In this document: positions 15,412-51,751 of the stretch, piece after piece
Layout of the letters: each line of letters starts with the position of its first letter
How positions within the stretch are numbered: the stretch's first letter is position 1
NCBI RefSeq assembly: GCF_013337285.1
Contig: NZ_SUPW01000002.1
Coordinates: forward strand, 124,001-188,000
Reading direction: 5' to 3'
Origin: Agrobacterium tumefaciens
GTDB lineage: Bacteria > Pseudomonadota > Alphaproteobacteria > Rhizobiales > Rhizobiaceae
Length of the DNA stretch: 64,000 bases
The notes under the pieces: model-generated
The model's database searches: none
Told to the model about the DNA's origin: nothing
The model's input: only the letters and a program-made list of their open reading frames with translations
Translations under genes and position numbers: made by a program

Positions 15412-15437
15412 CCGCTCAATTGCGGACGTGATTTTGC

Positions 15438-15479: not shown

Positions 15480-15498
15480 CGTTTTGGGGGGCACGTTC

Positions 15499-16038: not shown

Positions 16039-16144
16039 AGGCGCTGCCTTGATCGTGTTTCAGTCCGTCCTGAAACCCGTTTGAGGTCTCGGGCGGTGGC
16101 GGTTTGAGCCAGGGGGTGGTGCATATCAACTCCTGGAGCACCTC

Positions 16145-29336: not shown

Positions 29337-29897
29337 TCAAGCCAGCCCAAGTCCTTGGGCGGTGAGGCCTCCCTCCGCCAACCGCTCCAGCACCACCTCG
29401 ACGCGCTCCGATACCGGCACCTTCGGCACTATCACCGTTTCATAATCCAGCCGGGCATAGTCCGCGAGCAGGCGCTCGTATTCCTCAACGGCCGAATCGA
29501 AATCATGTTTGCGCTCATCATCGCCCCGGTAGATTTCCGGCCAGGGTGGGGTGAGGAAAACCAGGCTGTTGTAGCGGTGCACATGGCGCAACGTATCGAT
29601 GAAGGCATCGCCGCTGACATGGCGCAGCGCGGAGGCGGCATCGATCAGGCCACGGTCGAAGAAGACGAGGCCTTCCGGCGGCGCCTTTTGCCGGTCTTCG
29701 AGTGCAACGGCGATGGCGCGGCGGGCGAAGGCTTCGATGTCTATCCAGGGCAGGGCGGTGCCGCCATTACGGGTTTCCTCGATGACGATCCGCCGCCCTG
29801 GTTCCTCGACGGTGGCGAAACCGCGCCTTGCAAGTTCGGCAAGCAGGGTGGATTTGCCGCCGCCGGAGCAGCCGGAAAGGATGATGAAACGGTCCAT
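29337..29897 (-). CDS. AAA-family ATPase (NadR/Ttd14-like P-loop, AAA_28)
   Basis: A 186-residue single-domain P-loop protein. Walker A is SGCSGGGKSTLL near the N-terminus; EEPGRRIV and LVFFDRGLIDAA (with a D-R-G motif) follow, then VFLTPPWPEIYRGDDERKHDFD. This matches the AAA_28 family of small kinase-like ATPases whose substrate is mostly unknown. The ATG at 29897 is preferred because it starts directly before the first strand; an in-frame ATG at 29924 has no ribosome site. It is convergent with livJ and stands alone. Confidence 0.8.
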   Translation of the reverse strand: MDRFIILSGCSGGGKSTLLAELARRGFATVEEPGRRIVIEETRNGGTALPWIDIEAFARRAIAVALEDRQKAPPEGLVFFDRGLIDAASALRHVSGDAFIDTLRHVHRYNSLVFLTPPWPEIYRGDDERKHDFDSAVEEYERLLADYARLDYETVIVPKVPVSERVEVVLERLAEGGLTAQGLGLA

Positions 29898-29958
29898 GGG
29901 GGGTATTCCTGTTTCGGGGGGCATATGGGTCTGTGGTGATTTTTGGGAGATGGGTGCC

Positions 29959-30162: not shown

Positions 30163-31092
30163 TCACCCCTGATGCAGAACATGCGCCGCCTTGACCGCAG
30201 CAGAGGCGCGGTTTTCGACGCCGAGCTTCACATAGATCTGTTCCAGATGCTTGTTCACGGTTCTGGCGGAAAGGCCGAGGATTTCGCCGATGTCGCGGTT
30301 GGATTTGCCCTTGGCGATCCATAGCAGCACTTCGGATTCCCGCGTCGTCAGGGCGAAGTGGTCCTTGAGCAGATGGTCGTCGGATTTCTCGTTGGCGGCA
30401 GTCAGGCGGAAGAGATATTCGTCCGGTCCCATCGCGCCGAGGAAGGAGAGTTGCAGAGCAGGCCGCCCGGCTTCGGTGATCGTCAGCGGTGTGTCGCGGG
30501 CGGCGTCCACCGTCGCCCTGTCTTTTAGCCAGCCCGAAATATGGGCGACGACGATCTCCAGCCCGTCATCGCGGCCGGTGGCGGCATTGACGAGCCGCGT
30601 TGCCTGCGGGGTCGACCAGTGGATGGCGCCATTGGCGCGAACCGCGAGCAGGTGGCGGCCGGCGGCATCGAGGGCGACGCGGGCGCTCTGGGCCGAGCGG
30701 GCATTGGAGAGATGCACGCGAATGCGGGCGCGCAGCTCGTCGATATTGATCGGCTTGGTGAGATAATCCACACCGCCGGACTCCAGCGCCCGCACCACAT
30801 GTTCGGTTTCCGTCAGCCCGGTCATGAAGATGACGGGCACCTGCGCCACCGCCGCATTGGCTTTCAGGCGGCGGCAGGTCTCGAAACCGTCCATGGATGG
30901 CATGACGGCGTCGAGCAGGATGATGTCGGGGGTGATGCGTTCGGCGATGTTGAGCGCGGCCTGACCCGAGGTGGCGATGAGGGCCGAAAAGCCTGACTGT
31001 TCCAGCGCGTCGGTCAAGAACCCCAGCGCTTCCGGGCTGTCATCCACCAGCAGGACGATGTCTCTTGGAGCCGCTGTCGCCTGACCGCTCAT
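30163..31092 (-). CDS. Response regulator with LuxR-type DNA-binding domain
   Basis: A 309-residue protein. Receiver domain (about 11-128): acidic pair in LLVDDSPEA, phospho-acceptor Asp in IILLDAVMPSMDGFE, Thr in FMTGLTE, Lys in YLTKPI. A linker domain of about 110 residues follows. The C-terminal LuxR helix-turn-helix (about 245-305) reads LTTRESEVLLWIAKGKSNRDIGEILGLSARTVNKHLEQIYVKLG. It should be phosphorylated by the sensor kinase encoded just upstream: the two genes overlap by 4 bp (ATGA), a firm sign of co-translation. Its targets may include the surrounding nitrogen genes, by inference only. Confidence 0.9.
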   Translation of the reverse strand: MSGQATAAPRDIVLLVDDSPEALGFLTDALEQSGFSALIATSGQAALNIAERITPDIILLDAVMPSMDGFETCRRLKANAAVAQVPVIFMTGLTETEHVVRALESGGVDYLTKPINIDELRARIRVHLSNARSAQSARVALDAAGRHLLAVRANGAIHWSTPQATRLVNAATGRDDGLEIVVAHISGWLKDRATVDAARDTPLTITEAGRPALQLSFLGAMGPDEYLFRLTAANEKSDDHLLKDHFALTTRESEVLLWIAKGKSNRDIGEILGLSARTVNKHLEQIYVKLGVENRASAAVKAAHVLHQG

Positions 31093-34000
31093 GCCGTGCC
31101 GTCTCCCCTGTTGTTGTCGTCAGAAAATCGCTTGAGAAAATCGGCGTAACCGGTGAGATCGAAGGCCTGCACATAGGCGCCAAGTTCCTGCGTGAAGGGC
31201 AGGTTTTCCGTGTTACGGGCAAGATCGGCGAGTTTCGCCTCGATGCCACGTATGTAGCCGATTTCGCCGAGCCGCTGCAAATCCTTGATATGGATTGCGC
31301 CGGGATGGATGATCTGCGGTATTGGCTGCGGGGCAGGTGCCGGGGGCAGGTCGGCCTCGTAAATCCATTTCAGGCCGAGATGCACGGCGAGCCTGTCGCA
31401 AAGGTGGCGGATATCGACCGGCTTGGCGATGGCGTCGTTGTGGTTGTCTTCGCCGGCACCCGCAACTGTCCCGTCGCCGATATTGGCCGAGAGCATGATG
31501 AGCGGGGCGGTCTGGCCGGCCTCGCGCAGCTTCGTCACCAGCTGCCATCCGCTCATGCCGGGCATGGAAATATCGATGAGGAAAAGGTCGGGCTTCACGC
31601 CTTCGATGAGCGTCAGGCATTCCGGTCCGCTCTGCGCCGTCAGCACTACGAAATCAAGCGGCGAAAGCACCTGCCGCATCAACTCGCGGTGGTCCTCATT
31701 ATCGTCGACCACGACGATGGTGCGGCGCGGGCCGGAATAGGAGCGGATGGTCTTCTCCGGCGCGGGTGCCGTGCTTGGCCGGTGGACGGCTGATAGCATG
31801 AGGCGGACGCGGAAGGTGGAACCCTCGTCCTTTTCGCTGGAGACGGAAATCTCGCCGCCGAGCGTATTGGTCAGAAGCCTTGTTATGGTGAGGCCGAGGC
31901 CGAGGCCCGGCATGGGTCGCACGCTTTCTGCCTCTCCGCGCTGGAAGGGTTCGTAGATGCGGGCGAGGTCCTTTTCGGCAATGCCGCGGCCGGTATCGGA
32001 CACCGTGAAGCTTGCCACCTGGCTGCGATAGGCGACATCGAAGGTGACGGCTCCCTCATCGGTGAATTTGATGGCGTTGGAGAGCAGGTTGACGAGGATC
32101 TGGCGCAACCTTTTTTCATCGGTGCGGACATATTGCGGCAGCGCGGCGGTGCGCTCATGGCGGAATTCCAGCCCCTTGGCCTGCGCCTGCGGGCGAAACA
32201 TATCAACGATCTGGTCGAGGAAATCCTTGATATTGATCTCGTTGGAATAGACCTGCAGACGACCCGCCTCGATCTTGGAGATATCCAGAAGCCCGTCGAT
32301 CAGGCCCGAGAGATGATCGGCGGAGCGGCGGATGACCCGGATGGCCGATTGCCGGGGAGCGGGAATTGTCTCGTCACGTTCGAGGATCTGGGCATAACCC
32401 AGGACGGCGTTGAGCGGGGTGCGCAGTTCATGGCTGAGACCCACCACGTAGCGGCTCTTGGCGCGGTTGGCGGCCTCAGCCGTTTCCTTGGCGTCCTGAA
32501 GGGCGGCGTCGGTCTTCTTGTGGGCAGCGATTTCTTTGAGGAGCAACGTGTTCTGGCGGGAGGATTCCTCTTCCGCCACCACCCGGCTGTCATGGGCAAG
32601 CACGAGGAACCAGCAGACGATGCCGGCAATGACGGCAAAGACGAAAAACACGATGAGGATGGTGCGGTTGACCACATCAGCCGTTGCCGGCGATGCGGTG
32701 CCGACCTGATGGGCGATGAGCGCCAATATGCCGCCAATGGCGGTGACGGCAATGGCCGCCGCCATGCCGTAACGCCCCAGCCGGGTGGCGAGTTTTGCCA
32801 CCAGCTGCCGTGGCAGGAAAGTCTTTGCGACGGTGGCGACCTGATAGTTGAGCTTGGCCTTCGGTTTGCACATGTCATGGCAGCGGCTGTCCAGCGAACA
32901 GCAGAGCGAACAGATCGGCGCGGCATAGGCCGGACACCACGCCATGTCCTCCGGCTCGAAGGGGTGTTCGCAGATCGAGCAGGTGATGCTGCTTTCTTCG
33001 CGCCATTGCTGGCGCGGCTTGCGGGCGAGGTAGAACTTGCCCCTGGTGGCGAAGGCGAGGGCGGGGGAGGCGATGAAGGCGACGATGAGCGTCAGATAGG
33101 GGGCCAGCGAGGCGGCAAGCGGGCCGAAAGTGCCGAAATGCGCCATCAGCGCAATGGTGGCCGAAAGCGCCATGGAACCGACGCCGACCGGATTGATATC
33201 GTAGAGATGGGCGCGCTTGAATTCGATGCCCGGCGGGGCAAGGCCGAGCGGCTTGTTGATGAAAAGATCGGCGGAAATGGTGCAGAGCCACGCCATGGCG
33301 ATGATGGAGAAGATGCCGAGCGTTTCCTCGAGCAGCCGGTAGATGCCGAGTTCCATCAATAGCAGGGCGATCGCCACATTAAAGACCAGCCAGACGACGC
33401 GGCCGGGGTGGCTGTGGGTGAGGCGGGAGAAGAAATTCGACCAGGCGAGGGACCCCGCATAGGCATTCATGACGTTGATCTTCAGCTGCGAGACGACCAC
33501 GAAGGCGACCATCAGCAGCATGGCGGCGGTCTGGTTGGGGATCATGTAACCGAAGGCGGTCAGGTACATCTGCGCCGGATCGGCGGCGCGGTCCACCGAG
33601 ACGCCGGAACTGAAGGTCAGCACCACCAGGAACGAACCGGCCAACAGCTTCGGCACACCGACGACGACCCAGCCGGCACCGGCGAGGAAGACGGCGATGC
33701 GGTGGCGAAGCCTGCTCTGGCCTTCGGCCGGCAGGAAGCGCAGGAAATCCACCTGTTCGCCGATCTGCGACATCAGCGCCAGAATGACGGCGGACGCCGC
33801 GCCGAACTCCACCAGATTGAAATCCGCGACTGTGCCCGGCGGGCCGGAGGCATGGTGAATGCCGGCAAAGGCCCGCCAGAGATCGTATTTTTCCCAGTCC
33901 ATCAAGGCGATGAAGATGAAGGGCAAAACGTTCAGCACGATCCAGAACGGCTGGGTGATGATCTGGAAGCGGCTGATGAGGCGCACGCCATGGGTGACGA

Positions 34001-34487
34001 GCGGAATGACCATGACGGCGGAGATGATGTAGCCGATCCAGAGCGGAATGCCGAGCGCCAGTTCCAGCGCGCCAGACATGATCGACGCCTCGATGGCAAA
34101 GAGCATGAAGGTGAAGGCGGCATAGATCAGCGAGGTGATGGTGGAGCCGATGTAACCGAAGCTCGCGCCGCGCGTCAGAAGATCGATATCGACACCGTGG
34201 CGGATGGCATAGCGACTGATCGGCAGGCCGACGGCGAGCATGGCGATCGCCGCGACGATGATGGCATAGAAGGCGTTGGTGGTGCCGTAGGACAGCGTGA
34301 TCGCGCCGCCAATGGCTTCCAGCGCCAGAAAGGAGATCGCGCCGATGGCGGTGTGGGAAATGCGGTTTGACGAAAATTGCCGGGCGCTTTTGGCTGTGAA
34401 GCGCAGCGCATAGTCTTCCAGCGTCTGGTTGGCGACCCAGCGGTTATATTCGCGCCTGACGGGGATGATGCGTTGCCGTGCGGCCAT
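31089..34487 (-). CDS. NCS1-transporter/hybrid histidine kinase fusion
   Basis: An 1132-residue multidomain protein. Residues 15-480 are a complete NCS1-type (cytosine/purine/allantoin permease) module with about 12 membrane segments. Residues 500-542 form a Cys-rich cluster with eight Cys (503, 506, 518, 526, 529, 530, 536, 540), like a zinc-binding knuckle. Two more membrane segments span 575-632. A DHp domain with SHELRTPLNA (phospho-His686), an HATPase (NLLSNAIKF, DTGRGIAEKD, GLGLGL), a receiver (VVVDDNEDH, Asp972) and a C-terminal helical tail follow. It probably senses a nitrogenous compound through its transporter module, as CbrA does with its SLC5 module. The start at 34487 lies 32 bp after the SDR stop. 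Confidence 0.88.
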   Translation of the reverse strand: MAARQRIIPVRREYNRWVANQTLEDYALRFTAKSARQFSSNRISHTAIGAISFLALEAIGGAITLSYGTTNAFYAIIVAAIAMLAVGLPISRYAIRHGVDIDLLTRGASFGYIGSTITSLIYAAFTFMLFAIEASIMSGALELALGIPLWIGYIISAVMVIPLVTHGVRLISRFQIITQPFWIVLNVLPFIFIALMDWEKYDLWRAFAGIHHASGPPGTVADFNLVEFGAASAVILALMSQIGEQVDFLRFLPAEGQSRLRHRIAVFLAGAGWVVVGVPKLLAGSFLVVLTFSSGVSVDRAADPAQMYLTAFGYMIPNQTAAMLLMVAFVVVSQLKINVMNAYAGSLAWSNFFSRLTHSHPGRVVWLVFNVAIALLLMELGIYRLLEETLGIFSIIAMAWLCTISADLFINKPLGLAPPGIEFKRAHLYDINPVGVGSMALSATIALMAHFGTFGPLAASLAPYLTLIVAFIASPALAFATRGKFYLARKPRQQWREESSITCSICEHPFEPEDMAWCPAYAAPICSLCCSLDSRCHDMCKPKAKLNYQVATVAKTFLPRQLVAKLATRLGRYGMAAAIAVTAIGGILALIAHQVGTASPATADVVNRTILIVFFVFAVIAGIVCWFLVLAHDSRVVAEEESSRQNTLLLKEIAAHKKTDAALQDAKETAEAANRAKSRYVVGLSHELRTPLNAVLGYAQILERDETIPAPRQSAIRVIRRSADHLSGLIDGLLDISKIEAGRLQVYSNEINIKDFLDQIVDMFRPQAQAKGLEFRHERTAALPQYVRTDEKRLRQILVNLLSNAIKFTDEGAVTFDVAYRSQVASFTVSDTGRGIAEKDLARIYEPFQRGEAESVRPMPGLGLGLTITRLLTNTLGGEISVSSEKDEGSTFRVRLMLSAVHRPSTAPAPEKTIRSYSGPRRTIVVVDDNEDHRELMRQVLSPLDFVVLTAQSGPECLTLIEGVKPDLFLIDISMPGMSGWQLVTKLREAGQTAPLIMLSANIGDGTVAGAGEDNHNDAIAKPVDIRHLCDRLAVHLGLKWIYEADLPPAPAPQPIPQIIHPGAIHIKDLQRLGEIGYIRGIEAKLADLARNTENLPFTQELGAYVQAFDLTGYADFLKRFSDDNNRGDGTA

Positions 34488-34518: not shown

Positions 34519-35289
34519 TCACAGCCGCACCGACATGCCGCCATCCACCGTCAGCACATGGCCGTTGACGAACGAGGCCGCATCGCTGGCCAAAAACAAA
34601 GCCGCACCGGCGATTTCATCCGGCCTGCCCCAGCGCTCCAGCGGCACGCGCAGCTTGGCGAAGGCAACCATGTCAGGGTTTTCGGCAAGGGCGGCATTGG
34701 TTTCTGTTGCAAACATGCCGGGCGCAATGGCGTTGCTGGTGATGCCGCGCGCGCCATATTCCACGGCAATCGCCCGCATCAGCCCGGTCAGCCCCTGTTT
34801 GGCGACGGGGTAGATCGCATCCCCCGGCCGGACGATATGGCCGAGAATGGAGGTGATGGTGATGATGCGGCCATAACCGTTGGTATTCATGGCCTCCGCA
34901 GCATCGCGCGACAGCGAGATGGAGGAGGTGAGGTCGGTGCGGATCAACTCCAGCACATCCTCGTCATTAAATTCAGCAAGCGGGCGGCGGTCGCGCGCGC
35001 CGACATTGTTGACGAGAATATCGAGATGGCCGAATTCGTCCATGATACGGCGGACGAGCGCGCTGCCGGCTTTGGTATCGGCGATGTCGAAAGCGGCGTA
35101 GTCGGCCTTTCCGCCGGCCTGGCGAAGCGTGTCGACCGCCTGTTGCAGCGTCTCGGGGTTGCGGCCGGTCATCCACACATGCGCACCTGCCTCAGCAAAG
35201 GCGCTGGCGATTTCGAAACCGAGACCACGGCCGCTGCCGGTAATGACGGCGATGCGGTTTTCGAGAGAGAATTTCTGGAGAATGCCCAT
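34519..35289 (-). CDS. SDR-family oxidoreductase (gluconate 5-dehydrogenase-like)
   Basis: A 256-residue classical short-chain dehydrogenase. It has the cofactor motif TGSGRGLG, the NNVG motif in DILVNNVGARDRRP, a catalytic Ser in ITITSILGH, and Tyr and Lys in YPVAKQG. The C-terminal ending FVNGHVLTVDGGMSVRL is typical. The basic Arg in TGRNPETL suggests NADP preference. Its substrate is unknown. It is the first gene of the unit that continues with the sensor kinase and the response regulator, so it may act in the same catabolic response. Confidence 0.85.
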   Translation of the reverse strand: MGILQKFSLENRIAVITGSGRGLGFEIASAFAEAGAHVWMTGRNPETLQQAVDTLRQAGGKADYAAFDIADTKAGSALVRRIMDEFGHLDILVNNVGARDRRPLAEFNDEDVLELIRTDLTSSISLSRDAAEAMNTNGYGRIITITSILGHIVRPGDAIYPVAKQGLTGLMRAIAVEYGARGITSNAIAPGMFATETNAALAENPDMVAFAKLRVPLERWGRPDEIAGAALFLASDAASFVNGHVLTVDGGMSVRL

Positions 35290-35402: not shown

Positions 35403-35436
35403 CAAAAATGGCGTCGCCCGGTTGGGCGACGCCATG
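35403..35436 (-). terminator. Rho-independent terminator of glnII
   Basis: A perfect twelve-pair stem ATGGCGTCGCCC / GGGCGACGCCAT with a four-base loop, followed by a T-run when read leftwards. It lies 11 bp beyond the glnII stop. Confidence 0.92.
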
Positions 35437-35446: not shown

Positions 35447-36481
35447 TCAGGCAGCAGCCGACTTTGCGAGCGGCACTTCTGCAATCGTCTGCAGAACGAC
35501 GGAAGCGATCTGGTAAGGGCAGCCCTGCGAGTTCGGACGACGGTCTTCGAGGTAACCACGGTAGCCGTTGTTGACGAAGGAATGCGGAACGCGGATCGAG
35601 GCACCACGGTCTGCAACGCCGTAGGAGAACTTGTTCCACGGCGCGGTTTCGTGCTTGCCGGTCAGGCGCAGATGGTTGTCCGGGCCGTAAACGTCGATGT
35701 GTTCCTGCCAGTTCTTGGCAAAAGCGGCCATGAGGGCTTCGAAATATTCCTTGCCGCCAACTTCGCGCATGAACTTGGTGGAGAAGTTGCAATGCATGCC
35801 GGAACCGTTCCAGTCGGTATCGCCGAGCGGCTTGCAATGGAATTCGACGTCGATGCCGTACTGTTCGCAAAGACGCAGCAGCAGGTAACGGGCGATCCAG
35901 ATCTGGTCGGCGGCGCGCTTGGAGCCCTTGCCGAATACCTGGAATTCCCACTGGCCCTTGGCCACTTCGGCATTGATGCCTTCGTGGTTGATGCCGGCTT
36001 CGAGGCAGAGATCGAGGTGCTCTTCAACGATTTCGCGGGCAACCGAACCGACGTTCTTGAAGCCGACGCCCGTGTAATACGGACCCTGCGGAGCCGGGTA
36101 GCCCTGTTCCGGGAAGCCGAGCGGGCGGCCGTCCTTATAGAAGAAATATTCCTGTTCGAAACCGAACCATGCATCCTCGTCCTCGACGATGGTGGCGCGG
36201 CTGTTCGAGGCATGCGGGGTAACGCCATCGGGCATCATGACTTCGCACATGACGAGCGCGCCGTTGGTGCGGGCCGGGTCGGGGTAGATCGCGACGGGCT
36301 TCAGCACGCAATCCGACGAATGGCCTTCAGCCTGCTGGGTGGACGAACCATCAAAACCCCAAAGCGGCAGCTGCTCGAGCGTGGGGAATTCGTCGAATTC
36401 CTTGACCTGTGTCTTGCCGCGCAGGTTTGCGACCGGCTTGTATCCGTCCAGCCAGATGTACTCGAGTTTGAACTTAGTCAT
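35447..36481 (-). CDS. glnII: Glutamine synthetase type II (GSII)
   Basis: A 344-residue eukaryote-like glutamine synthetase, the second GS of rhizobia: it makes glutamine from glutamate, ammonia and ATP. It starts FKLEYIWLDGYKPVANLRGKT. The beta-grasp domain ends in PLWGFDGSSTQQAEGHSSD; the catalytic domain has FGFEQEYFFY (metal Glu), GINAEVAKGQWEFQV, GSGMHCNFST and the glutamate loop NKFSYGVADRGASIRVPHS. There is no adenylylation Tyr motif, as expected for GSII. ATG 36481 has GAGAGG upstream. Its promoter region carries a sigma-54 site and a candidate NtrC site, as known for rhizobial glnII. Confidence 0.96.
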   Translation of the reverse strand: MTKFKLEYIWLDGYKPVANLRGKTQVKEFDEFPTLEQLPLWGFDGSSTQQAEGHSSDCVLKPVAIYPDPARTNGALVMCEVMMPDGVTPHASNSRATIVEDEDAWFGFEQEYFFYKDGRPLGFPEQGYPAPQGPYYTGVGFKNVGSVAREIVEEHLDLCLEAGINHEGINAEVAKGQWEFQVFGKGSKRAADQIWIARYLLLRLCEQYGIDVEFHCKPLGDTDWNGSGMHCNFSTKFMREVGGKEYFEALMAAFAKNWQEHIDVYGPDNHLRLTGKHETAPWNKFSYGVADRGASIRVPHSFVNNGYRGYLEDRRPNSQGCPYQIASVVLQTIAEVPLAKSAAA

Positions 36482-36575
36482 TACGAACCTCTCATAGGTA
36501 ACAATGCGAAGCCTTGAGGCTTGCCGTGGCGTTTGCCACCGGAAGCACATTCGCGTTCAAGGGCTGACCCCTTAG

Positions 36576-37395: not shown

Positions 37396-37411
37396 TACGT
37401 CAATTGACGTA
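37396..37411. promoter_or_regulatory. Perfect 16-bp palindrome upstream of urtA
   Basis: TACGTCAATTGACGTA is a perfect inverted repeat about 100 bp before the urtA start. It has the size and symmetry of a dimeric repressor or activator site (GntR-like proteins often use similar dyads). No -10 box is evident downstream of the embedded TTGACG. The binder is unknown. Confidence 0.4.
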
Positions 37412-37510: not shown

Positions 37511-38800
37511 ATGATATTCCGCAAGACGCTTAGCGCCGCGCTGCTCGGCGCGATCATGTCCACCACCGCCTTCCACGGCGCTTTCGCCGCTGACGATACG
37601 ATCAAGGTCGGCGTGCTGCATTCTCTTTCCGGCACCATGGCGATTTCAGAAACGACTCTGAAAGACGCCATGCTGATGCTCATCGACGAGCAGAACAAGA
37701 AGGGCGGCGTTCTCGGCAAGAAGCTCGAAGCCGTGGTGGTCGATCCGGCTTCCGACTGGCCGCTGTTTGCCGAAAAGGCCCGCCAGCTGATTTCGCAGGA
37801 CAAGGTCGCCGCCGTTTTCGGCTGCTGGACGTCGTCGTCGCGCAAATCCGTGCTGCCGGTGTTCGAAGAACTGAATTCGCTGCTTTTCTACCCCGTGCAA
37901 TATGAGGGTGAAGAATCCTCCCGCAACATCTTCTATACGGGTGCCGCTCCCAACCAGCAGGCCATTCCGGCCGTCGATTATCTCGCCAGCACCGAAGGTG
38001 TGGAGCGCTGGGTTCTGGCCGGTACTGATTATGTCTACCCACAGACCACAAACAAGATCCTGAAGGCCTACCTGATGTCGAAGGGCGTCAAGGAAGAGGA
38101 CATCATGATCAACTACACGCCGTTCGGCCATTCCGACTGGCAGACGATCGTGTCCGACATCAAGAAATTCGGCTCGGCCGGCAAGAAGACCGCCGTAGTT
38201 TCCACCATCAATGGTGACGCCAACGTGCCGTTCTACAAGGAACTGGCCAATCAGGGCATCAAGGCGGAAGACATTCCGGTCGTCGCTTTCTCGGTTGGCG
38301 AAGAAGAGCTTGCCGGTCTCGATACCGCGCCGCTGGTCGGCCACCTTGCCGCATGGAACTACTTCCAGTCCGTTGATTCTCCTGTTAATGCCGAGTTCAT
38401 CAAGACCTGGCATGCGTTTACCAAGAACGACAAGCGCGTGACCAACGACCCGATGGAAGCCGCCTATATCGGCTTCAACGCCTGGGTAAAGGCCGTCGAA
38501 TCCGCCGGCACCACCGATACGGACAAGGTGCTGGACTCGATCCTCGGCGTTTCCGTGCCGAACCTCTCGGGCGGTTACTCCACCGTCATGCCGAACCACC
38601 ACATCACCAAGCCGGTGCTGATCGGCGAAATCCAGGCCGATGGGCAATTCGAGATCGTGCAGCAGACGCCGCAGGTGGTGGGTGATGAGTGGTCGGATTA
38701 TCTGCCGGACTCCAAGGATCTGATTTCGGATTGGAGGAAGCCGATGTCTTGCGGGAACTTCAATGTGGCCACGGGTAAGTGCGGTGGCAAGGGTAGCTGA
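37511..38800 (+). CDS. urtA: Urea ABC transporter substrate-binding protein UrtA
   Basis: A 429-residue periplasmic protein with a signal peptide cleaved after GAFA. The mature part starts DDTIKVGVLHSLSGTMAISETTLKDAMLMLIDEQN, the UrtA/AmiC-type motif, and contains FGCWTSSSRKSVLPVFEELNSLLFYPVQYEGEE and the late MSCGNFNVATGKCGGKGS, all diagnostic of UrtA rather than LivK. It captures urea for UrtBCDE. AAGGAGAGG precedes the ATG. A gap of 288 bp with a family-A repeat separates it from urtB. Confidence 0.96.
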   Translation: MIFRKTLSAALLGAIMSTTAFHGAFAADDTIKVGVLHSLSGTMAISETTLKDAMLMLIDEQNKKGGVLGKKLEAVVVDPASDWPLFAEKARQLISQDKVAAVFGCWTSSSRKSVLPVFEELNSLLFYPVQYEGEESSRNIFYTGAAPNQQAIPAVDYLASTEGVERWVLAGTDYVYPQTTNKILKAYLMSKGVKEEDIMINYTPFGHSDWQTIVSDIKKFGSAGKKTAVVSTINGDANVPFYKELANQGIKAEDIPVVAFSVGEEELAGLDTAPLVGHLAAWNYFQSVDSPVNAEFIKTWHAFTKNDKRVTNDPMEAAYIGFNAWVKAVESAGTTDTDKVLDSILGVSVPNLSGGYSTVMPNHHITKPVLIGEIQADGQFEIVQQTPQVVGDEWSDYLPDSKDLISDWRKPMSCGNFNVATGKCGGKGS

Positions 38801-39088: not shown

Positions 39089-40702
39089 ATGACGATCCGA
39101 TCTTTTCTCGGAGCCATCTTCCTCTGGCTCACCATGGGGATCGCATCCCACTCCTTCGCGCAAAGCGATCCGAAGGCGCTGATCGATGCGCTCGGCACGG
39201 CCGACTTCAAGCAGGCCGAAACCTTGATCGGCCAGATCGCCGCCACCGGCGACGCGCGCGTGGTTCCGGCGCTGGAGGCTTTCGCTGCGGGCGATCTCTA
39301 CGTGCGCAAATCCGACAATCTCGTTTTCATGACGAAGCCCGCCGGATCCAACTTCACGCTGGTCGATCCGCTGACCGGCGAAAGCGCCGGTGAAGCGCCG
39401 AAGGCTGCGGTATCCAAGATCAAGATCAACAATACCCTGCGCCGCGCCATCCGCGCTGCCCTTGGCGGCCTGACCCTGCTCAGCCCGGAAAAATCCGTGC
39501 GGCTTTCGGCAGCAGACGCCGTCCTGAAGGCCCCCAGCGCTGAAAATCTCGAATTGCTGGAAGCGGCCCTATCAAAGGAAACCGATAATGAGGTGCGGAC
39601 CCGGATGGAGGAGGCGCGGGCTGTCTCGCTGCTCTCCTCCGACCGCCCCCTCGAGGTAAAGAAAGAAGCTATCGCCACCATCAAGAAACTTGGCGGGCGC
39701 GATGCGATCAGCATTCTGATGGCGGCGACGCCATCGGTCGATCCGAGCCTGAAGCCTGATGTCGATGAAGCGATTTCCAGCATTGAAAGCGCGCTCGCCT
39801 TCTGGGATTACGTGCAGAATATCTGGTATGGCCTGTCGCTCGGTTCCGTGCTGCTGCTTGCCGCCATCGGCCTTGCCATCACTTTCGGCGTCATGGGCAT
39901 CATCAATATGGCGCATGGCGAGATGGTGATGATCGGGGCCTATTCCACCTTCATGGTGCAGGAGGTTATCCGCACGCATTTCCCCGGCCTGTTCGACTGG
40001 TCGCTGGCCATCGCCTTGCCTGTCGCCTTTCTGGTGACGGCGTTTGTCGGTCTCGTGATGGAGCGTGGCGTCATCCGCTATCTCTACGGCCGGCCGCTGG
40101 AAACGCTTCTGGCCACCTGGGGCATCTCGCTCATCCTGCAACAGGGCGTGCGCTCCATCTTCGGCCCCACCAACCGCGAAGTCGGCAGCCCCGGCTGGAT
40201 GTCCGGCTCCTTCAGCCTCGGTTATCTCAATTTCACCTGGAACCGGGTGTGGATCGTCTGCTTCTCGCTATCGGTGTTCTTCGCGCTGCTGGTGCTGCTG
40301 AAACGCTCCGCCTTCGGCCTGCAGATGCGCGCCGTGACCCAGAACCGCCGCATGGCTTCTTCCATGGGCATCCGCACGCCGTGGGTGGATGCCTTCACCT
40401 TCGCGCTCGGCTCCGGTGTCGCCGGTCTTGCCGGGGTGGCCCTGTCGCAGATCGACAATGTCTCGCCCAATCTTGGCCAGAGCTACATCATCGACAGTTT
40501 CATGGTCGTGGTGTTCGGCGGGGTGGGCAATCTCTGGGGAACGCTGGTCGGGGCGCTGTCGCTCGGTGTGCTCAACAAGTTTCTTGAGCCGACGGTGGGC
40601 GCCGTGCTCGGCAAAATCCTCGTGCTCGTTCTCATCATCCTGTTCATCCAGAAGCGGCCGCGCGGTCTCTTCGCACTCAAGGGAAGGGCGATCGAAGCAT
40701 GA
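39089..40702 (+). CDS. urtB: Urea ABC transporter permease UrtB
   Basis: A 537-residue protein with a signal-like N-terminus, an extended UrtB-specific region of about 240 residues (SDPKALIDALGTADFKQAETL, predicted helical and extracytoplasmic) and a LivH-type permease core from about 250 (WYGLSLGSVLLLAAIGLAITFGVMGIINMAHGEMVMIGAY). The contact loop reads VVVFGGVGNLWGTLVGAL. Length and architecture are standard for UrtB. AAGGGAA precedes the ATG; the gene overlaps urtC by 4 bp. Confidence 0.95.
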   Translation: MTIRSFLGAIFLWLTMGIASHSFAQSDPKALIDALGTADFKQAETLIGQIAATGDARVVPALEAFAAGDLYVRKSDNLVFMTKPAGSNFTLVDPLTGESAGEAPKAAVSKIKINNTLRRAIRAALGGLTLLSPEKSVRLSAADAVLKAPSAENLELLEAALSKETDNEVRTRMEEARAVSLLSSDRPLEVKKEAIATIKKLGGRDAISILMAATPSVDPSLKPDVDEAISSIESALAFWDYVQNIWYGLSLGSVLLLAAIGLAITFGVMGIINMAHGEMVMIGAYSTFMVQEVIRTHFPGLFDWSLAIALPVAFLVTAFVGLVMERGVIRYLYGRPLETLLATWGISLILQQGVRSIFGPTNREVGSPGWMSGSFSLGYLNFTWNRVWIVCFSLSVFFALLVLLKRSAFGLQMRAVTQNRRMASSMGIRTPWVDAFTFALGSGVAGLAGVALSQIDNVSPNLGQSYIIDSFMVVVFGGVGNLWGTLVGALSLGVLNKFLEPTVGAVLGKILVLVLIILFIQKRPRGLFALKGRAIEA

Positions 40703-41871
40703 TTACCGGCTTCCTCCTGCGCGCGCTCGATCGCCGCATTTCCATCGCCATCGGCATAATTCTCGCCATTGCCGTGCTGGTGCCCGCCTCCAACCTGCTG
40801 TTGCCTCAAGACAGCGCCTTGCACATCCCGACCTACATCATGTCGATGCTGGGCAAATATCTGGCCTATGCGCTGCTTGCGCTGGCGCTCGATCTGGTCT
40901 GGGGTTATTGCGGCATTCTCTCGCTCGGCCATGCCGCCTTCTTCGCGCTCGGCGGTTATGCCATGGGCATGTATCTGATGCGGCAGATCGGCACGCGCGG
41001 GGTCTATGGCCATCCGGTGCTGCCTGATTTCATGGTGTTCCTCAACTGGAAGGAACTGCCGTGGTTCTGGCAGGGCTTCGACATGTTCTGGTTTGCGGCG
41101 CTGATGGTGCTTGTCGTGCCGGGGCTTCTCGCCTTCGTGTTCGGCTGGTTTGCCTTCCGCTCGCGCGTCAACGGCGTTTACCTCTCGATCATCACCCAGG
41201 CCATGACCTATGCCCTGCTGCTTGCCTTCTTCCGCAACGATATGGGTTTCGGCGGCAATAATGGTCTCACCGATTTCAAGGATATCCTCGGCTTTTCCGT
41301 GCAGGCGGATGGCACCCGCGCCGTGCTGTTTGCCATGACGGCTGTGATGCTGGCGCTTTCGCTGCTGGTTGCGTCCGGCATCGTCAATTCCAAATTCGGC
41401 AAGGTGCTGGTGGGCGTGCGTGATGCCGAAAGCCGGGTGCGGTTCCTCGGCTTTCGGGTGGAAAACATCAAGCTCTTCACCTTCGTCGTCTCGGCCATGA
41501 TGGCAGGCATTGCCGGCGCGCTGTTCGTGCCGCAGGTGGGCATCATCAATCCCGGCGAATTTTCGCCCGCCAATTCCATCGAGGTCGTGGTGTGGACGGC
41601 TGTGGGCGGGCGCGGCACGCTGATCGGACCGATCATCGGCGCCATTCTCGTCAATGGCGGCAAGAGCTATTTCACCGGGGCATTTCCAGAATTCTGGCTG
41701 TTTGCGCTGGGTGGACTGTTCATCGCGGTGACGCTGTTCTTCCCCAAGGGCATCGTCGGCACGGTGCAGCATTATCTGGCCGGACGACGCGAAAAGCGGG
41801 CGGCGCGGGCGGCAAGCGCTGGTGAACAGCCGGGCAATGACAGCGCGGTTGCGCAACAGGCGGCGGAGTAA
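40699..41871 (+). CDS. urtC: Urea ABC transporter permease UrtC
   Basis: A 390-residue LivM-type permease with about ten membrane segments. Diagnostic stretches are LALDLVWGYCGILSLGHAAFFALGGYAMGMYLM, VNGVYLSIITQAMTYALLL, NNGLTDFKDILGF and VVWTAVGGRGTLIGPIIGAILVNGGKSYFT. With UrtB it makes the urea channel. Its ATG lies inside the urtB stop (ATGA), so translation is coupled. The tail is rich in Ala and Arg. Confidence 0.95.
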   Translation: MITGFLLRALDRRISIAIGIILAIAVLVPASNLLLPQDSALHIPTYIMSMLGKYLAYALLALALDLVWGYCGILSLGHAAFFALGGYAMGMYLMRQIGTRGVYGHPVLPDFMVFLNWKELPWFWQGFDMFWFAALMVLVVPGLLAFVFGWFAFRSRVNGVYLSIITQAMTYALLLAFFRNDMGFGGNNGLTDFKDILGFSVQADGTRAVLFAMTAVMLALSLLVASGIVNSKFGKVLVGVRDAESRVRFLGFRVENIKLFTFVVSAMMAGIAGALFVPQVGIINPGEFSPANSIEVVVWTAVGGRGTLIGPIIGAILVNGGKSYFTGAFPEFWLFALGGLFIAVTLFFPKGIVGTVQHYLAGRREKRAARAASAGEQPGNDSAVAQQAAE

Positions 41872-41875
41872 GCCC

Positions 41876-42637
41876 ATGAACACGGTTTCCGAAAACAGAA
41901 CCAAAAGCCTGCTTTATCTCGATGGCGTCTCCGTTTCCTTCGATGGGTTCAGGGCATTGAATTCCCTTTCCTTCGTGGTGGAGCCGGGCGAGCTTCGCGC
42001 CATCATCGGGCCGAATGGCGCGGGCAAAACGACGATGATGGATATTATCACCGGCAAGACGCGGCCTGACAGCGGCACCGTGCTGTTCGAAGACAGTATC
42101 GACCTCACTAAAAAGGACGAGGTCGACATCGCCCAGCTCGGTATCGGCCGGAAATTCCAGAAACCGACGGTGTTTGAAAGCCACACCGTCTGGGACAATC
42201 TGGAACTGGCGCTGAACCGCAAGCGCGGGGTGTTCGCCACGCTGTTCTACCGGCTGACGCAGGAAGACAAGGCCCGCATCGAGGAAATCCTCGCCACCGT
42301 GCGCCTTGCCCACCGCCGCAGCGACCTCGCCGCCAACCTTTCGCACGGCCAGAAACAATGGCTCGAGATCGGCATGCTGCTGGCGCAGGAGCCGAAGCTG
42401 CTCTTGGTGGACGAGCCGGTGGCGGGCATGACGGATGCGGAAACGGCCGAAACCGCCGTGCTCTTGAAGGAAATCGCCAAGACCCGTTCGGTGGTGGTGG
42501 TGGAACACGACATGGGCTTCATCCGCGAGTTGGGCGTGAAGGTGACGTGTCTTGCCGAAGGTTCGGTGCTGGCTGAAGGGTCTATCGATTTCGTGTCCAG
42601 CGATCCGAAGGTGATCGAGAATTATCTGGGGCGATAG
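41876..42637 (+). CDS. urtD: Urea ABC transporter ATPase UrtD
   Basis: A 253-residue ATPase: Walker A GPNGAGKTT, the UrtD-specific GIGRKFQKPTVFESHTVWDNLELAL, signature LSHGQKQWLEIGMLL, Walker B LLLVDEPVAGMT and the switch His in VVVVEHDMGFIREL. The ATG is 4 bp after the urtC stop. The frame extends upstream to 41822 inside urtC, but that part is not family sequence. After urtD the operon is interrupted by an unrelated gene before urtE. Confidence 0.95.
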   Translation: MNTVSENRTKSLLYLDGVSVSFDGFRALNSLSFVVEPGELRAIIGPNGAGKTTMMDIITGKTRPDSGTVLFEDSIDLTKKDEVDIAQLGIGRKFQKPTVFESHTVWDNLELALNRKRGVFATLFYRLTQEDKARIEEILATVRLAHRRSDLAANLSHGQKQWLEIGMLLAQEPKLLLVDEPVAGMTDAETAETAVLLKEIAKTRSVVVVEHDMGFIRELGVKVTCLAEGSVLAEGSIDFVSSDPKVIENYLGR

Positions 42638-42713
42638 AAAGAGCTGGCCTCTACTTGTGCCTGTAATAATAACCGGATTTAAGTTGAAAAATTTAAAATC
42701 TGGAGTTGATCTA

Positions 42714-43232
42714 ATGGCGTTGATTGGAATTCTGGTTATGGCAATCGGTGCTGCAGCAGTCTGGTATTGGCGGTTGAAGATGGTGCGTGAGGCAGGTAGC
42801 GAAATCATCGATACCGTCGAGAAAATGCGCGGCGCCTATAAGCGCAGATCGTTTCGCAAGAAGGCCGAAGTTGCTCCGATAGCCTCCATCCGCGATCCCG
42901 CCATTGCTGCGGTGGCATTCTTCATGTGCCTTGCGAACGAAAAGCCGATGTATCTCGAGATGGCCAAAAATGTCGTTCGCGACAGGATGAAAGGTATCAT
43001 CCCGCCCGCGGATATGGAGGAAGTGATCGTCTTTGGAGAATGGGCGTCCAGAAATGTCGTCAATCCCGAAGACCCTATCCGCAGGTTTCGCGATTTATGG
43101 GCAAATGCGCTCGATTTCGATGAAAGACGCCAACTGATCGATATAGCCGAAGAGGTCAGCCGAGTGGGGGGTGACAAGACCTCTGGGCAGGACCTTGCCC
43201 TGCAGGCGTTGCGACGAACATTACTGAACTAG
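42714..43232 (+). CDS. Unrecognised membrane-anchored protein inserted in the urt operon
   Basis: A 172-residue protein: one N-terminal membrane segment (LIGILVMAIGAAAVWYW), a basic juxtamembrane stretch (KMRGAYKRRSFRKKAE), then an all-helical domain of about 110 residues (SIRDPAIAAVAFFMCLANEKPMYLEMAKNVVRDRM, then RRQLIDIAEEVSRVGG). The helical layout faintly recalls TerB/DjlA-type domains, but the match is too weak to assign. The leader and early codons are visibly AT-richer than urtD and urtE. ATG 42714 has GGAG 10 bp upstream. It stops 14 bp before the urtE start, so it is probably co-transcribed. It is not a known urea-transporter component. Confidence 0.75.
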   Translation: MALIGILVMAIGAAAVWYWRLKMVREAGSEIIDTVEKMRGAYKRRSFRKKAEVAPIASIRDPAIAAVAFFMCLANEKPMYLEMAKNVVRDRMKGIIPPADMEEVIVFGEWASRNVVNPEDPIRRFRDLWANALDFDERRQLIDIAEEVSRVGGDKTSGQDLALQALRRTLLN

Positions 43233-43246
43233 AACAGGTGGATGAC

Positions 43247-43942
43247 ATGCTGACAGTCGAAAACATCAACCTCCACTACGGCGCAGCGCAAGCGCTCCGC
43301 GGCGTGTCGCTCAATGCGGAGATGGGCAAGATCACCTGCGTTCTCGGCCGCAACGGCGTCGGCAAAAGCTCGCTGTTGCGCGCCGTGACCGGCCAGCACG
43401 CCATCAGTGCCGGCTCGATCAGTTTCGGCGGCGCGCCGCTGGATGGGCTGGCGCCGTACCACCGGGCCAAGCGCGGTGTCGGTTATGTGCCGCAGGGGCG
43501 GGAGATCTTTCCGCTGCTCAGCGTTCAGGAGAACCTCGAAAGCGGTTATGCGCCGCTGCCGCGCAAGGAACGGTTCATTCCCGATGATATTTTCAGCCTG
43601 TTTCCGGTGCTGCAAACCATGCTGGGGAGGCGCGGCGGTGATCTCTCCGGCGGCCAGCAGCAGCAGCTTGCCATTGGCCGGGCGCTGGTGACGCGACCGA
43701 AAATCCTCGTGCTCGATGAGCCGACCGAGGGCATCCAGCCGTCGATCATCAAGGATATCGGCCGGGCGATCAAATATCTGCGGGATTCCACCGGCATGGC
43801 GATCCTGCTGGTCGAGCAATATCTGGATTTCTGCCGTGAACTTGCAGATTACGTCTACATCATGGATCGCGGTGAAATCGTGCATGAGGGGCTGGCCGAA
43901 ACGCTGGATACACCGGAAGCGCGGCGTCATTTGACAGTATAA
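43247..43942 (+). CDS. urtE: Urea ABC transporter ATPase UrtE
   Basis: A 231-residue LivF-type ATPase: MLTVENINLHYGAAQALRGVSL, Walker A GRNGVGKSS, GVGYVPQGREIFPLLSVQENLESGY (the UrtE pattern), signature LSGGQQQQLAIGRALVTRP, Walker B ILVLDEPTEGIQPSII and AILLVEQYLDFCRELAD. It completes the urea importer. The frame allows a GTG at 43238; ATG 43247 gives the family N-terminus and has AGGTGG just upstream. It closes the urt operon. Confidence 0.95.
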   Translation: MLTVENINLHYGAAQALRGVSLNAEMGKITCVLGRNGVGKSSLLRAVTGQHAISAGSISFGGAPLDGLAPYHRAKRGVGYVPQGREIFPLLSVQENLESGYAPLPRKERFIPDDIFSLFPVLQTMLGRRGGDLSGGQQQQLAIGRALVTRPKILVLDEPTEGIQPSIIKDIGRAIKYLRDSTGMAILLVEQYLDFCRELADYVYIMDRGEIVHEGLAETLDTPEARRHLTV

Positions 43943-44196: not shown

Positions 44197-45450
44197 ATGC
44201 ATCAAGACTTTGCCCTTGGCCGGGCCGCCCGGCTGTTCCGCTCCGCCCGCACCCTGGTGCTGGGCTTTGCGATATGTGCGAGCGCTGGCGCCGCAGCGTC
44301 GGCCTCGACCTGCGGTCAGCTTCCCGGACCCGGCATGGAGCCAGGTCGGCATGATTTTTCCATTCTCTCTAACGGGCAGAAACGCGACGGCGTCTATTTC
44401 GTTCCATCGGCCTATGACGGAAAAAAGCCGTTGCCGGTGGTATTCGATTTCCACGGCTCCAACAGCAATCCGCACGGCCAGCTGAACCGCAGCGGCTGGG
44501 ACAAGCTTGCCGAGCGCGACGGTCTGATGGTCGTGGCGCTGGCGGGCAGCCTTAATGGCGAAATGCCCGGCACTCACGCCTGGAATGTTCCGGGTGTTAC
44601 CACGCGTCCGGGCGGGCTGGATGAAGTGAGCTTCATTCGCAATGCGGTTGACATGGTCAAGGGCAAATTCTGCGTGGATGAAGAGCGCTTTTACGGTTCA
44701 GGTTATTCCGGCGGCGGGCGCATGCTGTCGCAATTCATCTGCACCGGAGCCAAGGATTTCAACGCTGCCGGCTTTGTCGCATCGCTGCGTGCCGGTTATC
44801 CGCTGGAGACCGAAGGCAAATGGGGACCGGATGCGGCAAGCTGCCAGCCGGCGCGGCCGATGTCGATCATCGCCTTTGCGGGCCTGAAGGATCCTGCCAA
44901 TCCCTATCAGGGCGGCGGCAAGTCCTATTGGCAATATGGCGGCGAAACGGCGCTGAAGCGTTGGGCCGAAATGGACGGTTGCAAGGGCGGCGCAAAAAGC
45001 AAGCCGGGCGAGAGCTTTACCGTTAATTCCTACGACGTCTGCAAGGGCGGTGCGCGCATTCAGTCCTATGTCATCGAAAACTGGGACCATGCCTGGCCGC
45101 GCGCCACCATGAAGGCGGAAGTGCTGGCAGCGGCTGCCGTTGTCACCCGCAAGCCCGGTGGCGAGCAGACGCCGAAAGCCGAACCGGCCGTGGAGCGCAA
45201 GATGCCCACAGGCGAAGTGATGCGCACGGTTGATGCGGCCGAGAGAATGTGGGATTTCTTCCGCAACACGGAAGGGCAGCTGGTGGTGGACGCCGTCGTC
45301 AAGAAGGATTGTGGCGCCAAGGCCTCGTCCGCTTCCGCAAGTACATCGGAGACCGCGTGCAGCAGCAACAGCAAGCCATCGGCCCTTCCGGTTGTGAAGA
45401 CGCTGAACCTGTCCGGCAGCAGCGCGCCCGTGGCAGAGGACGCATTGTAA
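44197..45450 (+). CDS. Secreted esterase of the PHB-depolymerase/LpqC type
   Basis: A 417-residue protein with a signal peptide (core LVLGFAICASAGAAASAS). The catalytic domain has VVFDFHGSNSNPHGQL (oxyanion region), nucleophile elbow GSGYSGGGRM, AFAGLKDPANPY near the acid, and NWDHAWPR with the catalytic His. The pattern fits poly(hydroxybutyrate) depolymerase-like/feruloyl-esterase-like secreted enzymes. The C-terminal 90 residues are Lys/Ala/Ser-rich with three Cys. The last 94 bp overlap the start of ureD in another frame. Position at the head of the urease cluster gives no functional clue that I can defend. Confidence 0.8.
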   Translation: MHQDFALGRAARLFRSARTLVLGFAICASAGAAASASTCGQLPGPGMEPGRHDFSILSNGQKRDGVYFVPSAYDGKKPLPVVFDFHGSNSNPHGQLNRSGWDKLAERDGLMVVALAGSLNGEMPGTHAWNVPGVTTRPGGLDEVSFIRNAVDMVKGKFCVDEERFYGSGYSGGGRMLSQFICTGAKDFNAAGFVASLRAGYPLETEGKWGPDAASCQPARPMSIIAFAGLKDPANPYQGGGKSYWQYGGETALKRWAEMDGCKGGAKSKPGESFTVNSYDVCKGGARIQSYVIENWDHAWPRATMKAEVLAAAAVVTRKPGGEQTPKAEPAVERKMPTGEVMRTVDAAERMWDFFRNTEGQLVVDAVVKKDCGAKASSASASTSETACSSNSKPSALPVVKTLNLSGSSAPVAEDAL

Positions 45451-46208
45451 CCAAAGCCGTCGAAGGGCGCAGCCGGCTGGACCAGCTGTTTCAGGAAGGC
45501 TGCGCCAAAATCCGCCTGCCGGATACGTTTTCGAATGAGATGGAAGCCATTCTCATCAATTCCTCCGGCGGCTTGACCGGCGGAGACGAAATAGAATGGC
45601 GGGCCACGGCCGCTGCGGGCACCTCGCTGGTGGTAACAACGCAGGCCTGCGAGAAGGTCTACAAGGCATCATCAGGCACAGCCACTGTCACCGCCCGTGT
45701 TTCTGCCGGGCCGGGCGCCAGATTGCACTGGCTGCCGCAGGAAACCATTCTGTTCGACCAGGCGTCGCTGACCCGCAGGCTGGAAGCCGATCTCGACGCC
45801 TCCTCCGAATTCATCGCCGTCGAAGCCGTTCTGCTCGGGCGTCAAGCCATGGGCGAGGCGATGACGCATGGCCTGTTCCGCGACCGCTGGCGCATTCGCC
45901 ATGGCGGCAAGCTGGTGCATGCCGAAGAGCTGCTGCTTGCGGGTGAGGTGGCGGAGATGACGGCGAAGACGGCGGTTCTGGCCGGGCAGGTGGCCTTTGC
46001 GACGCTGCTTTATATCGGGCCTCTCTCCGAGGCGCTTCTGCCTAAAATCCGGGCTATTGCCGGTGAAAGCGGCGGTGCCAGCGAATGGCAGGGCAAGCTT
46101 GTCGTGCGTGTCTCTGCGGCAGACGGTTTCTCCCTCAGAAAATTGCTTTTTCCGATCATTTCGCTCTTGCGAAACGGCGCGCCAGTGCCGAAGGTCTGGA
46201 ATCTGTAA
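45357..46208 (+). CDS. ureD: Urease accessory protein UreD
   Basis: A 283-residue urease chaperone that, with UreF and UreG, delivers nickel to apo-urease. Conserved UreD blocks are ILINSSGGLTGGDEIEWR, VVTTQACEKVYKASSG, LHWLPQETILFDQASLTRRLEADL and LVVRVSAADGFSLRKLLFPI. I chose the GTG at 45357 because GGAG lies 6 bp upstream; the longer frame to 45249 has no ribosome site and reads as antisense-like sequence. This start lies inside the esterase gene, giving an overlap of 94 bp. Confidence 0.9.
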   Translation: MQQQQQAIGPSGCEDAEPVRQQRARGRGRIVTKAVEGRSRLDQLFQEGCAKIRLPDTFSNEMEAILINSSGGLTGGDEIEWRATAAAGTSLVVTTQACEKVYKASSGTATVTARVSAGPGARLHWLPQETILFDQASLTRRLEADLDASSEFIAVEAVLLGRQAMGEAMTHGLFRDRWRIRHGGKLVHAEELLLAGEVAEMTAKTAVLAGQVAFATLLYIGPLSEALLPKIRAIAGESGGASEWQGKLVVRVSAADGFSLRKLLFPIISLLRNGAPVPKVWNL

Positions 46209-46319
46209 CCTCCGGATCGCCCGCGACAGGCGACCTTCCGGGGTCTGTCAAACAAGTCGGACCTGTTCCCCGAAACCCTCAGTGGTTTGCGGTGCAGGTG
46301 CGCAAGCTGCGGGACGACG

Positions 46320-46622
46320 ATGAACCTTAGCCCAAGAGAAAAAGACAAGCTGCTGATTTCCATGGCCGCCATGGTGGCGCGCCGCCGGCTGGAGCGCGGC
46401 GTGAAGCTCAACTATCCCGAAGCGATTGCGCTGATTAGCGATTTCGTCGTCGAGGGCGCCCGTGACGGCCGCGCCGTGGCCGATCTGATGGAAGCCGGCG
46501 CGCATGTGATTTCACGCGATCAGGTGATGGAAGGCATTGCCGAAATGATCCATGATGTGCAGGTGGAAGCGACGTTTCCTGACGGCACCAAGCTGGTGAC
46601 CGTTCACGAACCGATCCGGTGA
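46320..46622 (+). CDS. ureA: Urease gamma subunit
   Basis: A 100-residue urease small subunit: [48 protein letters not shown] and the C-terminal [19 protein letters not shown] are the standard blocks. Together with UreB and UreC it forms the nickel enzyme that hydrolyses urea to ammonia and carbamate. An in-frame ATG at 46287 is not part of the conserved protein; ATG 46320 follows GGGACGACG. The DUF1272 gene begins 10 bp after its stop. Confidence 0.97.
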
Positions 46623-46632
46623 GGGGGAAGGC

Positions 46633-46890: not shown

Positions 46891-46910
46891 GACAGACAAG
46901 GGAGAGCACC

Positions 46911-47216: not shown

Positions 47217-47217
47217 G

Positions 47218-48000: not shown

Positions 48001-48005
48001 ACGGC

Positions 48006-48650: not shown

Positions 48651-48654
48651 GCCC

Positions 48655-50364: not shown

Positions 50365-50376
50365 CGGGGCGTTACG

Positions 50377-51732: not shown

Positions 51733-51751
51733 TTGGTTTGTTATTTTGTGA

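Follow-up and report, generated by a model that had tools for sequence, protein, structure and literature searches.

What does a sensor kinase that carries a permease in its own chain detect, and which genes does it control? The question arises from one gene in a 64,000-nucleotide stretch of DNA, referred to here as the window. The initial annotation had described a single 1132-residue chain, encoded with an SDR enzyme and a LuxR regulator between the liv genes and glnII/urt/ure. We confirmed the chain at 31089-34487 on the minus strand and found its neighbours as claimed. On the basis of sequence comparisons, we consider it probable that the kinase and the regulator form a two-component system for urea or short-chain amides, in which the regulator would activate the uptake and hydrolysis of urea (elsewhere formamide). 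The features that enter the argument are as follows.

30163 to 31092, minus strand: cognate response regulator gene, 309 aa, with a receiver and a LuxR-type DNA-binding domain (Pfam)
31089 to 34487, minus strand: hybrid sensor kinase gene, 1132 aa, with NCS1-like permease, eight-cysteine (Cys8) segment, two helices, kinase, receiver and C-terminal tail
33018 to 34487, minus strand: NCS1-like permease module, residues 1-490 (hhalign and hydropathy)
32868 to 32981, minus strand: Cys-rich segment, residues 503-540, predicted cytoplasmic
32595 to 32771, minus strand: two extra membrane helices, residues 573-631
31794 to 32459, minus strand: HisKA-HATPase kinase core, residues 677-898 (Pfam)
31389 to 31718, minus strand: C-terminal receiver, residues 924-1033, with D928, D929, D972 and K1022 invariant in 18 rows
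34519 to 35289, minus strand: SDR oxidoreductase gene (PRK06124, 411.8 bits, cut-off 303)
35447 to 36550: glnII, neighbour between the SDR and urt genes
37396 to 37411, no strand: perfect 16-bp palindrome TACGTCAATTGACGTA, 100 bp upstream of urtA, candidate response-regulator site
37511 to 38800, plus strand: urtA, urea ABC transporter binding protein (TIGR03407, 565 bits, cut-off 492.75)
39089 to 43939, plus strand: urtBCDE open frames
45234 to 53917, plus strand: urease genes ureD, A, B, C, E, F and G (open frames)

The kinase stop and the start of the regulator gene share a 4-base overlap, and the SDR gene lies upstream of the kinase gene across a gap of 31 bp. Because a strong hairpin with a T-run follows directly after glnII on the minus strand (35408-35435), the SDR, kinase and regulator genes may form one transcript. 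The SDR oxidoreductase itself probably lies outside the kinase system, and we judged it unlikely to be a functional partner: it is a neighbour in only 24 of 36 close-relative loci (window counted; 30 of the 36 extend just ~1.5 kb beyond the match). In the same set, window again counted, glnII is a neighbour in 34. An alternative in-frame ATG upstream of the kinase start would give 1151 residues; the 1132-residue start seems the likelier, because in 100 of the 147 relatives surveyed Met occupies exactly this position, which is also where the starts of five loci (L164, L165, L166, L169 and L170) are annotated. Between livK and the regulator gene, the window also holds a small P-loop ATPase-like frame (29337-29924) that recurs in several close relatives.

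Pfam places HisKA at residues 677-742, HATPase_c at 789-898 and the receiver at 924-1033, confirming that kinase core and receiver share one chain; with its conserved phospho-sites, the protein has the parts of a hybrid kinase. His686 of the core is invariant in 18 aligned rows, and a strict H-box pattern matches 123 of 147 relatives, leaving 24 that do not match. Hydropathy averaged over 18 aligned sequences predicts 12 helices in residues 47-479, followed by two more at 573-591 and 613-631, before the kinase core, in agreement with the two further helices described earlier. The loop between the two sets (480-572) is positive, with 15 K/R against 8 D/E, and carries the Cys-rich segment, whose presence was likewise verified: its eight cysteines (503, 506, 518, 526, 529, 530, 536 and 540) are invariant in 18/18 rows, and the eight-Cys pattern was found in all 147 full-length relatives scanned.

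The first 490 residues raise a question of family. Pfam gave no match for the N-terminal part of the window protein at E values up to 10, and no PF02133 match among 18 aligned members (window included) at E up to 1. The case for an NCS1 relation comes from a profile-profile comparison and from intermediates. Using hhalign, a permease profile was compared with 18 PF02133 proteins, giving a probability of 99.3% and an E value of 1e-20. The profile comprised 84 modules, namely 83 fusions (window included) and one standalone Acinetobacter permease; the window row was entered twice, also as query, and the program kept 74 of 85 rows. As an intermediate, the standalone permease G520:C40 matches both the fusion profile (2e-46) and PF02133, the latter above its cut-off. 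By these measures the module is NCS1-related despite the silence of Pfam, and the description of an NCS1-type permease fused to a hybrid kinase is borne out. Pfam gave no match to the SLC5 transporter domain in the window protein, whose permease aligns with NCS1, nor, as far as Pfam may include a model for it, to STAC; the Cys8 segment and the two helices occupy the corresponding place. Searching the sequences of solved structures returned no transporter match for the permease profile or for two standalone relatives; only by way of a PF02133 relative was Mhp1 reached. The genome to which the window belongs has no PF02133 match anywhere; a classical NCS1 permease in addition to the fused module was therefore not found. 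The module resembles Mhp1 and CodB-type NCS1 permeases (PF02133) in a profile relation spanning 424 columns, and differs from them in lying below Pfam detection, in its fusion to a kinase and at two ligand positions considered below.

Genome searches show the fusion to be conserved. It is present in 37/37 genomes of the genus examined (own included) and, across the mixed sample to which these belong, in 40 of 61 genomes, spread over 4 of 25 genera. An even draw across the class gave matches in 21 of 289 genomes, comprising 20 fusions (own included) and one weak standalone protein (G198), and an even draw across the phylum gave matches in 56 of 398, a few of them through fragments or standalone proteins. 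Among named genomes, at least 593 of 598 stretches were confirmed as relatives of the N-terminal part, not all of them checked for fusion. Plasmid records contributed 531 matches, standalone relatives included, of which 517 cover at least 80% of the query and 342 are from Klebsiella. In the one Klebsiella plasmid record viewed (L166, 5909-16264), kinase, regulator, urt-like genes and amiF lie together. A megaplasmid of Sinorhizobium meliloti strain GR4 (L163) carries an orthologue accompanied by the regulator and urtA. A 1901-residue frame in L040 was read as an open frame running past its start into the upstream region and was not counted as a gene fusion.

To ask what accompanies the fusion, neighbours were labelled through BLAST searches, with annotated proteins of the fetched loci and the window as a fixed reference set; genes outside this set are missed, and it contains no purine or allantoin enzymes. 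Three groups of loci were surveyed: named loci, which are the best 80 of the matches listed and are biased to close relatives; 19 class loci, another (L162, from G198) carrying no fusion; and 40 phylum regions picked for family diversity among the phylum matches, of which 37 pass a full-module filter. The three dropped are L207 (a standalone permease), L211 (without a permease) and L218 (a split alignment that failed the filter and adjoins urease genes). The adjoining receiver-LuxR gene marks the cognate regulator in the window, and all 80 named and all 19 class loci have a regulator of this type within 9 kb, as do 34 of the 37 phylum loci, the exceptions being L224, L225 and L236.

The survey revealed a conserved link with nitrogen genes. 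Within 9 kb, urtA was found in 76 of the best 80 named loci; the other four are L100 and L125, both at contig ends, L112, and L142, which has an AmiF-like neighbour. The same holds for 15 of the 19 class loci; counting against our reading, no urt gene lies within 9 kb in L152, L153 and L155, which represent one genus, or in L158. Among the phylum loci, 36 of 37 have urtA, formamidase, urease or AmiS, the exception (L208) being a short contig. At the genome level, UrtA above its curated cut-off occurs in 20/20 fusion-bearing class genomes compared with 63 of 289 overall (Fisher 3.9e-15, a value that ignores relatedness and, with several genomes per genus, overstates independence). In 16 of these 20, the coordinates place UrtA no more than 10 kb from the fusion.

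Two types of partner recur, either ABC genes with urease or a urt-like set with the formamidase FmdA, and FmdA and urease were found together within 9 kb in none of 147 loci. Five genomes of the phylum list have two fused copies each: in four of them (G551, G571, G693 and G487) one copy is at a formamidase locus and the other at a urease locus, whereas both copies in G425 are formamidase-linked. On a maximum-likelihood tree of the permease (59 labelled rows), the partner label changes at least seven times, a count that treats the standalone Acinetobacter protein as urease-linked. These repeated changes point to one ligand family. In L171, L224 and L225, a shorter kinase without the receiver is accompanied by separate regulators, FmdA and an AmiS/UreI-type channel.

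Standalone permeases provide a further comparison. The nearest one inspected (39.7% identity) precedes the urease cluster of Acinetobacter ursingii (L167) and ends in a shorter CxxC...CSLC tail. Annotated as an "allantoin permease" and lying directly before the urease genes (8950-16735), it is a candidate urea permease. Another standalone PF02133 relative, in L207 (8784-13981), adjoins nitrilase-like genes and, in our reading of the sequence, is also near AmiC- and AmiR-like genes.

The initial annotation had looked to classical NCS1 ligands, and a kinase that senses cytosine, purines, allantoin or hydantoins, as its permease relatives would suggest, is the first alternative to be weighed. Standalone homologues are annotated as allantoin or cytosine permeases, and a more distant one (27% identity) adjoins hydantoinase genes; moreover, since the breakdown of allantoin and purines ends in urea, such a sensor could well adjoin urease. 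Against this, the recurring neighbours, also in distant taxa, are urea and short-amide genes, and purine or allantoin enzymes do not appear in the annotated fusion regions viewed, a check that covers annotated loci. The pocket also speaks against it. In Mhp1, Trp117 and Gln121 are ligand residues, and Trp117 stacks on hydantoin. With Mhp1 numbering carried over via a PF02133 relative, so that the assignment rests on alignment, the Trp117 position corresponds to residue 129, which is Leu in 27 and Phe in 56 of 83 rows, and the Gln121 position to Glu133, invariant in 83/83. Because these positions hold L/F129 and E133, we speak of an NCS1-related module and not of a transporter for nucleobases or hydantoins. 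Taken with the neighbours, these residues make a nucleobase or hydantoin ligand very unlikely.

A second alternative is that the input is no permease ligand at all: the kinase might respond to metal or to redox state by way of the Cys8 segment, or to the nitrogen state in general, with the permease as a scaffold or a separate transporter. Urease needs nickel and formamidase does not, yet both are partners of the same module, and nickel sensing through the cysteines was judged unlikely because formamidase loci carry it too. A mere scaffold would also sit poorly with the strong conservation of the permease, in which nine residues (E133, Q241, E244, Q245, D247, Q334, K336, N338 and N341) are retained in 83/83 rows. 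The cysteines are nonetheless universal among the full-length relatives, and standalone permeases have CxxC tails as well. A precedent exists in CbrA, for which the available part of one report states that the transported ligand, L-histidine, did not significantly change any of the kinase activities in vitro (PMC7096432), a result that also counts against our own reading. Weighing both sides, we regard this alternative as unlikely, and urea or a short amide as the probable signal.

A palindrome, TACG-N8-CGTA, was read by eye in eight of ten printed intergenic sequences. We then scored 91 regions, consisting of 90 in which urtA and the kinase gene are divergent and at most 1500 bp apart, plus the glnII-urtA gap of the window. 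A perfect site is present in 79 of the 91, versus 0.21 expected, and one with at most one mismatch in 86, versus 7.1 expected, the expectations being derived from first-order resamplings, not exact dinucleotide shuffles. When the ten regions used for reading the pattern are left out, 71 of 81 have a perfect site. The sites number 37 distinct ones among 78 (window uncounted), many regions being from close relatives, and their consensus is TACGTCAWWTGACGTA. The window has one perfect palindrome, at 37396-37411; of 15 places across the genome, this one alone is a full palindrome.

The position of the palindrome mostly follows the urt operon. From its centre to the urtA start, the median distance is 101.5 bp (quartiles 92 and 105). 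In the 12 regions longer than 600 bp, nine have the site at 98-115 bp from urtA and at 555-1346 bp from the kinase, and in two more (L154 and L157) it precedes a conserved gene lying ahead of urtA on the same strand, so that in 11 of these 12 it is the operon and not the kinase to which a constant distance is kept; the exception, which counts against our reading, is L161, where the site is by the kinase. Where urtA lies beyond the regulator (L231 and L235), a perfect site stands roughly 100-120 bp before it. In L170 and L156 a perfect site is close before that same conserved gene, and in L312 and L313 one lies ~100 bp before a conserved gene opening a second urt operon. The gene that opens some urt operons behind the palindrome is annotated as a hypothetical protein (10262-11452 in L170) and is also seen in L154, L156, L157, L312 and L313.

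Could the neighbourhood have been co-inherited by chance or co-selection, the regulator controlling other genes and the palindrome belonging to another factor? Some lineages lack the site, which also weighs against our reading. The regions upstream in L151, L159, L160, L212 and L240 have no perfect palindrome, although another part of the locus holds one in L212 and L240. None occurs anywhere in the fetched loci L226, L229, L233, L201, L214 and L239 (urease-linked), or in L202, L213, L215, L171, L224, L225, L150, L158, L168 and L142, and an inverted-repeat scan upstream of 18 kinases, most of them without the palindrome, gave no common alternative by eye. In one genus, moreover, kinase and urtA are on different contigs. 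Conversely, among class genomes lacking the fusion, 0/20 urtA upstream regions (20 taken of 43) have a perfect palindrome. Other urtA copies in fusion genomes have a perfect match in 5 of 18 cases, three of these five being from the genus whose kinase is unlinked to urt, where the kinase has an upstream site as well, and the other two being L312 and L313. Together with differing gene orders and repeated partner switches, the motif's absence from the 20 fusion-less genomes argues for function, and we consider this alternative very unlikely. In three genomes of one genus (L314, L315 and L316), near-match palindromes occupy the same position (near 421-424) ahead of a second urtA, suggesting control in trans.

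We favor the urea or amide reading because of the linkage, UrtA co-occurrence, partner switches, the Acinetobacter relative, the motif and the pocket residues. The sequences themselves show how the domains are laid out, the relation to NCS1, the linkage and co-occurrence of genes, and the DNA motif, which is missing from 20 fusion-less genomes; the ligand, the direction of the response, the phosphotransfer route and DNA binding are what we infer. In the proposed mechanism, the NCS1-like module would bind urea, or carry and thereby report it, and in paralogues next to formamidase it would sense formamide instead. The signal would be relayed through the cytoplasmic eight-cysteine segment and the two extra helices to the kinase, and phosphate would pass from His686 to the C-terminal receiver and on to the LuxR-type regulator, directly or through an HPt protein. 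The regulator would then bind TACG-N8-CGTA ~100 bp ahead of the leading urt operon gene and activate urtABCDE, with urtA as the predicted first target gene and, in the window, perhaps the urease genes that follow.

Several transporter-fused kinases provide models. Ks-Amt5, an Amt-fused ammonium sensor kinase, also joins a nitrogen-compound transporter to a kinase, and differs in its Amt fold and in sensing ammonium. CbrA of Pseudomonas (SLC5-STAC-PAS kinase) likewise has transporter and kinase in one chain, but with another transporter family, a STAC linker, another ligand and the regulator CbrB. As far as the consulted portions of the papers go, its SLC5 part transports its ligand, histidine (PMC7096432; PMC13022988), and its STAC domain is located beneath the transporter, whose motions it may relay (PMC13022988); the Cys8 segment occupies this place in the window kinase. 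Our results support the view of the initial annotation that the kinase is a likely sensor comparable with CbrA. The best reading is that the window system works like CrbS/CrbR and RpuS/RpuR, which share with it a transporter-like N-terminus, a kinase, a C-terminal receiver, an adjacent LuxR regulator and a promoter repeat motif. According to the sections consulted, these systems activate acetate or pyruvate uptake or use, and the repeat is inverted for CrbR and direct for RpuR (PMC5715377, PMC9100948). They have SLC5 and STAC where the window kinase has an NCS1-like module, the Cys8 segment and two extra helices, and they respond to acetate or pyruvate where we propose urea or an amide.

On the target side, the Methylophilus methylotrophus fmd cluster is alike in pairing a formamidase with an ABC system that takes up short amides and urea. 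Its fmd genes are induced by formamide and urea, and the cluster has another putative regulator, which counts against the kinase as fmd sensor (PMC10781810, in the part consulted). A urtABCDE-formamidase locus has been described, with formamide uptake suggested in the portion drawn on here (PMC13209695); that paper mentions neither "histidine kinase" nor "two-component". Our search of the literature, mostly open-licence papers, found no title or displayed abstract dealing with an NCS1-fused kinase or with such a two-component system for urt or fmd genes, in agreement, for open-licence papers, with the earlier remark that ligand and targets are undescribed. The kind of protein, a transporter-fused sensor kinase, is known, whereas its transporter fold, linker, presumed ligand and site appear new.

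In agriculture and in animal waste, urea is a main source of nitrogen, and public records often name relatives of the kinase only "ATP-binding protein" or "hybrid sensor histidine kinase". If our reading is correct, a common, vaguely annotated protein would gain a ligand, a target and a binding site open to testing, transporter-fused kinases would gain another transporter fold beside SLC5 and Amt, and the system would probably tell the cell when urea or formamide, both small nitrogen foods, are present. A bolder and still doubtful extension is that NCS1-Cys8-hybrid kinases are widespread membrane transceptors for urea and formamide, the inducer sensor so far missing for urt and fmd operons in bacteria, acting through one palindromic site, repeatedly switched between the two ligands by small permease changes and using the cysteine cluster as a second input. 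Residue 402 is a lead as a determinant of urea versus formamide: it is Gly or Ala in 39/39 formamide-type rows (three of these with urt-like genes only), and 16 of the 19 urease-linked rows carry Cys, Ser, Thr or Met there, although only four well-supported independent pairs were available, too few for significance. Finally, L211 (9642-12505) encodes a kinase of the same family that has a Cys-rich start and two helices but no permease; it has its own regulator and, in our reading of the sequence, adjoins an iron-type alcohol dehydrogenase-like frame.
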